DNA of 64,000 bases from positions 62,001-126,000 of the forward strand of contig JARGFM010000003.1 in assembly GCA_029210725.1 (NCBI GenBank). The letters are read 5' to 3'. Origin of the DNA: Bacteroidales bacterium. GTDB taxonomy: Bacteria; Bacteroidota; Bacteroidia; Bacteroidales; GCA-2748055. The notes beneath the pieces were generated by a model that saw only the letters and a list, made by a program, of their open reading frames with translations, ran no database searches and had not been told where the DNA came from. A program made the translations under genes and the position numbers. Below, in pieces: positions 32,696-39,042 of this stretch. The first letter of the stretch is position 1; the number at the start of each line of letters is the position of its first letter.

Positions 32696-32811
32696 CCAAT
32701 TCTCATCTTAAAAATTTTCTTTTTACAGGCTTTCAGGCGATCTGCAGGGCACTGGACACATATATGTGCATTCAGGCCTGCATACTATCGTCTAACAAAA
32801 AATTGCTTGTA

Positions 32812-33585
32812 ATGAAAATGAACAGAAAGTGCCTAATTCTCCTGCCCCTGGCAGGTTTATTCCTTTTTTTCCACTATGGATGCAACAAGGATGAAGAAAG
32901 TGAAAGTTCTAAGAGTGAGAGCTCCAACTCCCTGGTATATGAGGATGAGACCCTTTTGGACCAGGTCAGCCCCTATTTCTATGACAATCATATTTACCGG
33001 ATCGAACTGCTGGGAGCAAACCAGGAACGGGAGCAGATTGTCCGTGAGGCTCTCGAAAACGGGGTAGAAGAGGAGTTCCTGATGATCGATCAGGCCCAGA
33101 AGTACTTCTTCAACCATACCGCTGTGATCATGTATTCCATCCCAACCCTGGATCCCGAGCAAACCCTGATCCTCTATGAAACAGGTGGACTCTACCAGGT
33201 CAGTATGGCCCATTACCGGCCGGCAGAGAGGGGACTCATGTATTTTGAGCTGAAAACCATGGATGATCACAACTATTTTTCCCTGAAACTGGATGATCAG
33301 ATGCGAATGGGAGAGTTGAAAGTTTTTGAAAACGAAAAGATAAAAAGTTTCAATAGTGCGGTTTATTCCTTAACTTACATGGACGAAAGCCAGGAGAAAA
33401 GCCTGAAAGGTGCAGAAGCCGAATGCTGCAGAAAGGAGAGTAGCTGGAAAGCCTGTATGAACTGCACGCTTGATGACTGCAGCAGCAGTTGGTTATGTAA
33501 GGCTACATCTCTTATAGCACCGGTTGAACTTGTTGCAGCTTTTGCTGCGTCCTGTATCGGTGCCGGACCGGATAGCAGATGTTAA
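32812..33585 (+). CDS. Lipoprotein with a cysteine-rich C-terminal domain
   Basis: 257 residues from ATG 32812 (a second ATG lies two codons on). The signal CLILLPLAGLFLFFHYGC ends in a lipobox cysteine at about residue 24, followed by a Lys/Glu/Ser-rich linker. The middle, about 45-200, is an acidic alpha/beta region of unknown family. The last 55 residues hold eight cysteines: CC, WKACMNC, DDC, WLC, then a hydrophobic IAPVELVAAFAASC and a final SRC. The spacing resembles Cys-rich bacteriocin domains of the halocin C8 type; this is a visual likeness, not a proven match. A small two-helix membrane protein gene follows 16 bases on. Function unknown. Confidence 0.6.
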   Translation: MKMNRKCLILLPLAGLFLFFHYGCNKDEESESSKSESSNSLVYEDETLLDQVSPYFYDNHIYRIELLGANQEREQIVREALENGVEEEFLMIDQAQKYFFNHTAVIMYSIPTLDPEQTLILYETGGLYQVSMAHYRPAERGLMYFELKTMDDHNYFSLKLDDQMRMGELKVFENEKIKSFNSAVYSLTYMDESQEKSLKGAEAECCRKESSWKACMNCTLDDCSSSWLCKATSLIAPVELVAAFAASCIGAGPDSRC

Positions 33586-33601
33586 ACCAAATATTATCCG
33601 T

Positions 33602-33811
33602 ATGAATCGTTACACAAAAGTTAAATTCTGGAGTCTCCCGGTCGTAGGGATCGTGTGTATTCTTATCGGAGGCTTTTTATATCCGTATGGCCCCGAAAAG
33701 AGGGTCTATGCTGATTTTTTTCTTCTTGCCGGGCTGGGGCAGATAGTTATATTTGCCGTGCTTCTTTTCTTCTGGGTTCGCCGGAAAAACAGGGAAGCTA
33801 AGAAAGCTTAA
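33602..33811 (+). CDS. Small two-helix membrane protein next to the Cys-rich lipoprotein
   Basis: 69 residues from the ATG at 33602; the frame is open 26 codons further upstream but only within the preceding gene. Two hydrophobic helices, about 11-30 (WSLPVVGIVCILIGGFLYPYG) shortened by a basic turn, and 40-62 (FFLLAGLGQIVIFAVLLFFW), end in a strongly basic tail RRKNREAKKA, so both ends are likely cytosolic. No family is recognised. Being placed directly after a Cys-rich putative peptide precursor, it could be an immunity or accessory protein, but nothing in it proves this. Confidence 0.55.
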   Translation: MNRYTKVKFWSLPVVGIVCILIGGFLYPYGPEKRVYADFFLLAGLGQIVIFAVLLFFWVRRKNREAKKA

Positions 33812-33828
33812 GTCCTGAAATCAACAGC

Positions 33829-33876
33829 AGCCCGGATTTTAGCCAGGTAGTTCTCAACCGGCACGTAATCCGGGCT
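33829..33876. repeat. Long perfect inverted repeat after the small membrane gene
   Basis: AGCCCGGATT at 33829-33838 and AATCCGGGCT at 33867-33876 form a 10-bp stem with a 28-nt loop. There is no U-run after the right arm, so it is not a standard intrinsic terminator; it may end or stabilise the transcript of the two preceding genes. The rest of the 33812-34023 gap shows no gene. Confidence 0.6.
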
Positions 33877-34023
33877 ACTGTTTCCGGATCCCAGGGCAGA
33901 TCCGTGTTTCAAAAGACAGATTCCCGCAGGCAACATTCAAATTTATGCTCATTTCCTGAGTCAGGCTGGCTCCAAATCAAATTCAGTGCTTAAATTTAGT
34001 AGCACAAAATATTTGAGAAGGAA

Positions 34024-37270: not shown

Positions 37271-37630
37271 ATGAAACTAACCAGCAGAGAAGAACAAATC
37301 ATGGATTACCTGTGGGAGCATGGGACCTCTTTTGTAAAGGACATAAAAGCCTCCTTCAAGGATCCACAACCTCATTATAATACGGTTTCAACAATGGTTA
37401 GAAATCTTGAACAAAAGAAAATGGTGGACCATGAAGATTTTGGAACGACCTACAGGTATTTTGCGCTTATCTCCAAGGAAGAATTCGTAAAGGGCAACCT
37501 GAAACGTGACGTGAAAAAGTACTTTGGAAATTCCTATAAATCCCTGGTGTCTTCTCTGGTGGAGTCTGATGACCTGACTTTAAAAGAAATAAAGGAGTTG
37601 ATTGAATTAGCCAAAAAAAGGAAACAATGA
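37271..37630 (+). CDS. BlaI/MecI/CopY-family transcriptional repressor
   Basis: 119 residues. The winged-helix domain spans about 1-75, with LTSREEQIMDYLWEHG and the recognition region PHYNTVSTMVRNLEQKKMVDHEDFGTT split across the wing (YRYFALISKEEF). The C-terminal helix pair (about 80-119) is for dimerisation. The family represses its own operon and is inactivated by proteolysis triggered by an M56 membrane peptidase, which is exactly the next gene, overlapping by four bases (ATGA). Two matching dyads overlap its promoter. No beta-lactamase or PBP2a lies nearby, so the controlled function is unclear. Codons are AT-rich compared with neighbours. Confidence 0.93.
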   Translation: MKLTSREEQIMDYLWEHGTSFVKDIKASFKDPQPHYNTVSTMVRNLEQKKMVDHEDFGTTYRYFALISKEEFVKGNLKRDVKKYFGNSYKSLVSSLVESDDLTLKEIKELIELAKKRKQ

Positions 37631-39042
37631 CATTGCTTCAGTATTATTTATATGCTAATGTTTATATCCTTGCCAGCTGGATATGCTATAGGATCTGGTT
37701 GAAGAACACGATCTACTTCAGATCCGCAAGGATCTTTTTAAACTCTTCTGTAATACTGTCCTCTATTTTACCGCTATTACAACTGGGACTCACTGATTTA
37801 TTAAGTAACACAAACATTGTAAATATCAGTCAGGATCTTCCAGTTATTGGAATAATTTATAATTATCAAACTGGAAATGTACCCTTGGAAACAAGCTCCT
37901 TTTCACTTGACTGGACTGTTATTGTAACCGCATTGCCCTTAACAGGTAGTACCATTACGTTTTTGATATATATGTATAAACATATAAAGATCAAGTCGCT
38001 ATTAAGAAGATCAACAGGATACTTACAGCTCGAAAATGGTCTTGATGTAGTGATGTCTGATGAAATGACTATACCTTTCATTTATTTCAAAAGAATTGTT
38101 ATCCCCAGCAACATCGATGACAAAGATCTTTCGCAGGTTATAAGTCATGAAATCACGCATTATCAAAAATCACATTATTTAGACAATGTGTTATTCTCAC
38201 TGTTTCATGCAATCTTTTGGTTCAATCCATTTTATCTACTGTTAAGAAATGCCCAGCAACTCTATCATGAATTCCAGGTTGATGATCTGATTCTCTCAAC
38301 CGGAGTTGATCCGGTGTCGTACAAGCTGTCTCTCATTAAATATAGTGTAGGACACAAATTGTATTCGCTTGCTAATGGATTATCAAACACAAACACAAAA
38401 ACAAGATTACAAATGATTAATAACATTCATATCAAAAAAGGTAAATGGAGATTATACGTCCTGCTTCCAATCATGGCTATTCTCTTCACTGTTATATGCT
38501 TCGCCAATATTGAACCTAAAACTGTTGATATTCAATCAAATGCCTTAACAAACATCAGTCAGGACGACACTCTCAAACTCGAAGTTGAGTTTATTGACCC
38601 ATTTCAGGGACCTGAAGGAAAGGATGTGGTCTGGCTCCAGGAAGGCGTAATAGTAGTACTTATGAATAGAAACTCTGACATCATGATAGATCGTGAAGAA
38701 TTGCTGTTAGCAGATGTTGAGGAGAAAATCATATCTGTATATAGTCGTAGAATAGAGCAAATTGGTGACTATAATACTGGCAATTATCCGGAAGGCACAG
38801 ACTTCGGCGTCAAAATTGCAGTTTCTAAAGATATAAAGGCCAGTATTGACGAATATCAGAAAATGTGCAATGCTATCAGTACCGCATTGTTTAAACTCCG
38901 TGAAAAGTATTCAAATAAACTATTTGATGCAGATTATGGTTCTCTGACCAATTCCGAAAACCAGGCTATTGATAAACTTATTCCGTTTAAAATCTATGGA
39001 TTGAAGCCAGATAAAGATATGCATCAAAATCCAAATAAATAA
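37627..39042 (+). CDS. M56 (BlaR1-type) membrane metallopeptidase with an ExbD-like C-terminal region
   Basis: 471 residues. N-terminal membrane segments at about 4-20, 35-52 and 95-115, then the zinc motif HEITH at His174-His178 (ISHEITHYQKSHYLDN) with a likely third ligand in LYHEFQVDD; a last membrane segment lies near 275-295 (LYVLLPIMAILFTVICF). The extracytoplasmic end (about 310-471) lacks a penicillin-binding sensor; IVVLMNRNSDIMIDREELL and DFGVKIAVSKDIKASIDEY resemble an ExbD/TolR periplasmic domain, by eye only. It should sense an unknown signal and trigger cleavage of the coupled BlaI-type repressor. AT-rich, part of the presumed acquired segment. Confidence 0.87.
   Translation: MTLLQYYLYANVYILASWICYRIWLKNTIYFRSARIFLNSSVILSSILPLLQLGLTDLLSNTNIVNISQDLPVIGIIYNYQTGNVPLETSSFSLDWTVIVTALPLTGSTITFLIYMYKHIKIKSLLRRSTGYLQLENGLDVVMSDEMTIPFIYFKRIVIPSNIDDKDLSQVISHEITHYQKSHYLDNVLFSLFHAIFWFNPFYLLLRNAQQLYHEFQVDDLILSTGVDPVSYKLSLIKYSVGHKLYSLANGLSNTNTKTRLQMINNIHIKKGKWRLYVLLPIMAILFTVICFANIEPKTVDIQSNALTNISQDDTLKLEVEFIDPFQGPEGKDVVWLQEGVIVVLMNRNSDIMIDREELLLADVEEKIISVYSRRIEQIGDYNTGNYPEGTDFGVKIAVSKDIKASIDEYQKMCNAISTALFKLREKYSNKLFDADYGSLTNSENQAIDKLIPFKIYGLKPDKDMHQNPNK

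Follow-up and report, generated by a model that had tools for sequence, protein, structure and literature searches.

The locus lies in a draft Bacteroidales genome (3.8 Mb, 98.6% complete), and the window referred to below is the whole 64,000-nt stretch of contig JARGFM010000003.1 that was analyzed. A gene for a lipoprotein precursor is followed there, after 16 nt, by a gene for a small membrane protein (Table 1). The main features reported in a preliminary description of this DNA are confirmed by translation: the lipoprotein has 257 residues, with a lipobox at Cys24 (FHYG-C), an acidic stretch and a C-terminal domain holding eight Cys within 53 residues, and the downstream ORF encodes a two-helix protein with a basic tail. 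An alternative, longer start of the lipoprotein gene exists at position 32764 in the window and also at locus L038; the alignments of homologues begin near 32812. The membrane protein has hydrophobic segments at residues 10-26 and 39-55, with three Lys or Arg residues ahead of the first and six in the C-terminal tail. Among 48 window ORFs with a length of 100 aa or more, picked for little overlap and including the lipoprotein gene, no other 53-residue stretch is as dense in Cys, the next richest having five; the binomial probability is 1e-7 per stretch against the Cys frequency of 1.07% in these ORFs.

Table 1. Features of the locus and their positions in the window
Feature	Position	Strand	Evidence
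Upstream intergenic region, with blocks CAGGCCT then CTAAC common to six genus copies	32696..32811	+	Alignment of 8 loci
Lipoprotein precursor gene, 257 aa (signal peptide, stem, linker, Cys tail)	32812..33585	+	Translation; 7 further full-length homologues, 27-78% identity
Lipobox Cys24 followed by N-K-D-E, consistent with C-X-K-(D/E)2, a lipoprotein export signal known from the literature	32881..32895	+	
Stem domain, residues 43-184	32938..33363	+	AlphaFold2: mostly beta-meander, helices 71-82 and 175-189
Linker, residues 185-203; putative release site	33364..33420	+	Variability, low pLDDT
Cys tail with eight Cys (residues 204-257), helical by prediction	33421..33582	+	
Gene for 69-aa two-helix membrane protein, basic at both ends; candidate immunity or helper protein	33602..33811	+	
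Strong hairpin (inverted repeat) downstream of the pair	33823..33882	+	-31.4 kcal/mol, z -6.2, equalled by none of 200 shuffles
3'-end remnant of uroporphyrinogen-decarboxylase-like gene	33814..33903	-	26 of 30 aa identical; DNA 83% over 102 nt to L081

With its shared blocks, the upstream intergenic region is a possible control region of the pair. The downstream inverted repeat had been described as closing the unit; the hairpin is real and strong, but it sits inside the remnant of a neighboring gene, which we take to have been uroporphyrinogen-decarboxylase-like, and so need not belong to the pair. It was not recognized by a simple terminator scan, but L036 has a perfect, if shorter, hairpin in this position, so that it may be a terminator; the repeat says nothing on the function of the pair. 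In L039 the decarboxylase-like gene next to the pair is intact, and in L037 its frame stays open as far as the end of the contig. Further along, positions 37271-39042 of the window hold two adjacent genes, one regulator-like and one membrane-peptidase-like, presumably of the BlaI/MecI and BlaR1/M56 types.

Export signal, modules and cysteines of the lipoprotein

Directly after the lipidated Cys, six of the eight full-length copies, namely the six from the genus, carry the sequence C-X-K-(D/E)2, as known Bacteroidetes surface lipoproteins do; the accessible part of PMC5080379 gives it as the optimal surface-export signal in Capnocytophaga canimorsus, and gives SDDDD as the consensus signal of Bacteroides fragilis, functional in Capnocytophaga too. 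The surface lipoproteins named in that part of the article handle glycans, and nothing is said there of a Cys-rich tail that looks detachable. The two divergent copies instead have CSEKTDN and CSETDEV at this position. A crude scan of 13 further N-termini in the window, roughly nine of which could plausibly belong to lipoproteins, detected the motif in none; the scan missed the lipobox of the 257-aa lipoprotein itself. Judged from its sequence, the lipoprotein is likely located at the cell surface.

The AlphaFold2 model, built from eight sequences, has residues 40-171 mostly in beta structure and the tail helical (tail pLDDT 70-86 by 10-residue block); pLDDT is below 50 at residues 1-33 and 191-194. 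When predicted alone, the tail forms four helices with a mean pLDDT of 80. Stem and tail are predicted, with fair model confidence, as separate modules that a variable linker connects. The linker and residues 25-42 are the least conserved parts (mean pairwise identity 0.34 in each, minimum 0.07 and 0.12, respectively), and the tail is best kept between distant copies (mean 0.54, minimum 0.37; stem 0.50, minimum 0.20). Synonymous and non-synonymous substitution rates come from 15 pairs (seven close, eight wider), which are formed from six of the eight copies and are not independent of each other. Tail dN is 1.2-2.4 fold above stem dN in all seven close pairs, while the two are about equal in the wider pairs (tail higher in four, lower in three, equal in one). 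For the membrane gene, dN is above the stem value in 13 of the 15 pairs, equal to it in one and below it in one. For stem, tail and membrane gene, dN/dS does not exceed 0.38 wherever it is computable; in the linker it ranges from 0.11 to 1.92, a noisy estimate on 19 codons.

The eight Cys of the tail are located at residues 205, 206, 215, 218, 223, 229, 248 and 257. Each of nine tails, including one found without a full-length precursor in genome G098, has either eight or six Cys, and residues 206, 215, 218 and 248 are invariant in all nine. Cys 205 and 257 are jointly absent in L041/L008, and Cys 223 and 229 are jointly absent in L042/L007 as well as in the G098 tail. This pairwise loss, in two or three events, suggests disulfides 205-257 and 223-229 in the tail, and the four invariant Cys could form a metal site.

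Conservation, linkage and neighborhood of the pair

A protein search with the lipoprotein in 100 genomes, its own included, identified full-length copies in eight (E 1.9e-175 to 2.5e-33), all belonging to one Bacteroidales family: six are from the genus (G000, G002, G006, G007, G008 and G009), and G027 and G020 represent further genera of that family. G098, from another family, has the tail-only match (E 2.1e-8), and all remaining matches have E-values of at least 0.013. The relatives are metagenome-assembled genomes of Bacteroidales, Bacteroidia or Bacteroidota. Scanning the species genomes with one peptide pattern from the tail alignment, which would miss distant tails, gave 31 stretches with eight confirmed; these eight loci are records of genomes already found, the window's own not among them. 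Profile searches, which score only the best candidates per genome, returned with the tail profile its own genome, G098 and four weak matches (E 0.002-0.003) in 393 order genomes, and its own plus six weak matches (E 0.002-0.007) in 395 class genomes. The full-length profile returned its own and 26 others (E 1.7e-4 to 0.043) in 395 phylum genomes. These others are weak and for the most part confined to the N-terminus or broken, and the three examined, which rank first, second and fourth, match N-terminal parts of unrelated exported proteins. No further convincing family member was found by profile in these order, class and phylum genomes. In viral contigs, none of 18 pattern matches to the tail was confirmed, and the whole lipoprotein had no match at E<=0.1 among plasmids and phages. 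The lipoprotein family looks narrow.

The membrane gene adjoins the full-length lipoprotein gene downstream in all eight genomes, with homologues 28-55% identical to the window's protein. The intergenic gap is 13-18 nt in six of the eight pairs and 114 nt in L008/L041; at L004 it is 16 nt with a shorter membrane-gene start, or becomes a 14-nt overlap with a longer one. Among 28 family genomes, the membrane profile scores 99-125 bits in exactly the eight lipoprotein carriers, next to five weak matches (E 0.015-0.030, 16.6-17.7 bits). At E<=0.001 in the 393 order genomes, only G113 and G335 were matched besides its own, both weakly, and we accept neither as a copy: G113 scores 23.8 bits versus the range of the true copies, in an 85-aa frame with no Cys-rich neighbor seen, and the G335 frame contains stops. 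The preliminary description had proposed that homologues with the stem but no Cys tail, or a membrane gene that is not linked, would weaken the pairing. No convincing stem-only homologue was found in the 100 genomes searched by protein or the 395 phylum genomes searched by profile, no strong unlinked membrane gene in the 28 family and 393 order genomes, and no clear copy of either gene alone in the genomes searched. The pairing of the two genes is real and conserved.

In G098, the tail is encoded by a short frame (L043:203-367) after an in-frame stop and a hydrophobic stretch, close to the contig start, and may thus be either a remnant or a reduced version. It is followed by a 66-aa two-helix protein (L043:439-636) that is unrelated to the usual partner and not recognized by the membrane profile (E 5.5).

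The genus copies of the pair sit behind a gene that we take to be sulfatase-like and ahead of the opposite-strand gene, where retained, that we take to be uroporphyrinogen-decarboxylase-like. The orthologous sulfatase is directly followed by the decarboxylase-like gene, without the pair, in G017, G010 and G016, and by later cluster genes, again without the pair, in G004 and G001; the G012 contig stops at the sulfatase, and G014 carries other DNA there. Between the two flanking genes in G017 lies a relic of 47 nt (L083:2905-2951), 43 of them identical to the end of the L038 membrane gene (alignment score 74, against at most 30 in 300 shuffles). The pair was therefore once present in G017 and was deleted together, which makes a merely recent insertion untenable as an explanation for that genome. 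No relic was found at the G010, G016, G004 and G001 sites, where the pair is absent either by its insertion elsewhere or by clean loss. In G027 and G020, the pair lies downstream of a transporter gene, presumably of the AEC type, at a site that other genomes keep without it: four orthologous transporters (G019, G026, G024 and G022) have no pair downstream. At L041 and L042, where such a transporter gene is next to the pair, what we take to be an M1-peptidase-like gene is located about 3 kb upstream, within the site that other genomes keep without the pair. By eye, no protease, exporter or modification gene stands directly beside the pair in most loci. Present or absent at two locations, the pair is an accessory unit.

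Comparison with known families

Searches of Pfam, NCBIfam, PHROGs and PADLOC returned nothing usable for the lipoprotein or the 69-aa protein. An LPXTG-anchor model scored 19.9 bits on the 69-aa protein (cut-off 15.9 bits, E 8.5e-4) by covering only a hydrophobic segment and basic end, and phrog_9418 (E 0.0012) likewise covers a hydrophobic segment with a basic end; the protein has no LPXTG motif, and we discarded both, as well as DUF1647 of Pfam, which was below its cut-off in the lipoprotein (E 0.041). The best sequence match among solved structures has an E-value of 1.3. Foldseek reached E 0.34 at best with the whole lipoprotein model and found no match at E<=10 with the tail alone, and the best VIA-align Z was 4.8, with rows mainly over residues 35-175 of the lipoprotein model. 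These structure searches do not establish a new fold. The pair is not described in the titles and abstract starts of the literature on halocin C8, fulvocin C, archaeal antimicrobial peptides and Cys-rich Bacteroidetes bacteriocin lipoproteins. Precursors of fulvocin C-related bacteriocins end in an eight-Cys peptide of about 45 residues, which matches the lipoprotein tail in number of Cys but differs in their spacing, and no NCBIfam or Pfam match for the lipoprotein backs this likeness.

A resemblance to halocin C8 had also been proposed for the locus, and it holds for the layout: in both systems an exported precursor joins its N-terminal part to a Cys-rich peptide at the C-terminus that includes a hydrophobic stretch. 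In the halocin C8 family, immunity is ascribed to the N-terminal part (HalI). The Cys spacing differs, and sequence kinship is not detectable with the shallow alignments available. The HMM check of the tail that had been suggested came out negative, with none of the nine tails matching any NCBIfam model, TIGR04449 included, at E<=10. TIGR04449 has no match in the source genome at E<=1, and weak matches in 22 of 148 Bacteroidota genomes, none over the cut-off; in each of the three examined, the match is located opposite a larger ORF or out of frame with one. As a control, the same model has matches in B. subtilis and H. volcanii, above the cut-off in one. Aligning the tail with a halocin C8-like profile by hhalign gave a probability of 0.3% over 9 columns, from only eight and three sequences, and a profile comparison of the precursors and small proteins of the pair with those of halocin loci, on shallow alignments, was not significant. 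Membership in the halocin C8 family is not supported. The export routes differ as well: according to a review (PMC11509114, accessible part), the halocin C8 precursor takes the Tat path and is processed to HalI and the halocin of 76 aa, whereas the 257-aa protein has a lipoprotein signal. The halocin C8 protease is given as unidentified in the accessible part of PMC12893001, so that the missing obvious linked protease here is no strong objection to processing.

We found 15 haloarchaeal plasmid records with halocin C8-like domain proteins and examined six loci. In three of them, an annotated hypothetical ORF of 68 aa lies 19-24 nt downstream of the halocin C8-like gene (L101:2804-3010, L102:2799-3005 and L115:1804-2010, the L115 protein sharing the accession of that in L101), and the proteins translated from L101 and L102 have two hydrophobic segments each. 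The small ORF is absent from the other three, where the next gene encodes 230 aa (L100 and L117) or a shorter halocin-like gene is followed by a transposase (L116). The accessible parts of the halocin literature make no mention of a 68-aa protein next to halocin C8-like genes. The pair analyzed here is a new family of a general kind already known, and is placed in no family tested.

Possible functions

The interpretation offered in the preliminary description, a Cys-rich bacteriocin cut off from its precursor, is partly supported, with antimicrobial activity and immunity putative: the variable linker, the paired loss of Cys, the surface-export signal and the loss of the pair as a unit support it indirectly. 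Taken as a whole, a surface-displayed bacteriocin-type precursor with a released tail and an immunity or helper protein is the explanation we prefer, at a little under an even chance. The lipoprotein would be exported, lipidated at Cys24 and carried to the outer membrane, where the C-X-K-(D/E)2 signal would flip it onto the cell surface. There the stem would display the tail, a small helical unit that as many as four disulfides would close (joint loss points to 205-257 and 223-229, and 206, 215, 218 and 248 are left as partners by default). An unlinked protease could then cut the variable linker and free a peptide of about 53-60 residues, which would act on the envelope of competing relatives. 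Protection of the producer, or help in maturing the tail, would fall to the two-helix membrane protein, whose two ends are probably cytoplasmic. The gene layout, its conservation and linkage, the joint loss of Cys, the motif match and the deletion of both genes in one genome are observed; surface location, disulfides, cleavage, killing and immunity are deduced from them. In favor of such a unit, we count the adjacency of the genes in all eight genomes and their presence or absence at two locations, the faster tail in close pairs and the faster membrane gene in most pairs, the modules split by a low-confidence stretch, the G098 tail with its unrelated two-helix partner, and the 68-aa ORFs at three halocin C8-like loci. 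Counted against it are the silence of family and structure libraries on both genes, the lack of an adjoining processing gene in most loci, the low dN/dS, the equal tail and stem dN in wider pairs and the possible metal site. Also on that side are the match to the Capnocytophaga motif where B. fragilis has a different consensus, the short G098 copy, the 114-nt gap, and the three archaeal loci without the small ORF.

Its main rival is a structural or binding lipoprotein of the surface or periplasm, whose tail would stay attached and whose two-helix partner would serve as anchor, sensor or assembly factor, with no killing. Low values of dN/dS across stem, tail and membrane gene fit this explanation, as do the well-defined predicted stem domain, a metal site that the invariant Cys could form, and the neighbors in genus g1, which look like carbohydrate genes (presumably sulfatase, rhamnosidase-type and DUF4038-type). 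We nevertheless consider it unlikely, if to be taken seriously, since the g3/g4 pair lies elsewhere, beside the AEC-type transporter, and is not tied to one pathway, the neighbors are kept in genomes without the pair, and a released part accords slightly better with the variable linker and with the higher tail dN in close pairs.

A released tail could also be a secreted, pheromone-like signaling peptide sensed through the two-helix protein, for which the anatomy would be the same as for a bacteriocin and with which the accessory presence agrees. We regard this as improbable: by eye no kinase or response regulator lies next to the pair, the tail, at 53 residues with eight Cys, is large compared with known pheromones, and the two-helix protein offers only short loops. 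Two adjacent genes, present or absent between relatives and lost jointly, would further suit a toxin-antitoxin-like or phage-defense pair in which the lipoprotein or its tail harms the envelope of its own cell whenever the small membrane protein does not restrain it. There is, however, no PADLOC match, the export signal points outward, and a conserved, exported Cys-rich tail is unlike known toxin-antitoxin toxins, which makes this the most improbable of the explanations considered.

Returning to the bacteriocin-type precursor, a more specific form of it, which we put forward as doubtful, is a lipid-anchored surface bacteriocin that is let go or used on contact, guarded by the 69-aa hairpin protein, with a layout convergent with that of some halocin C8-like loci. 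We know of no described bacteriocin of the phylum Bacteroidota that is anchored at the surface and then released. If the tail kills relatives, the pair would bring to light a new family of antimicrobial peptides in uncultured Bacteroidales and, with surface anchoring followed by release, a new mode of delivery. The unit is small and self-contained, so that this claim is directly testable. As the layout is common to some archaeal halocin C8-like loci, it also prompts the question of what role their 68-aa two-helix ORFs have.
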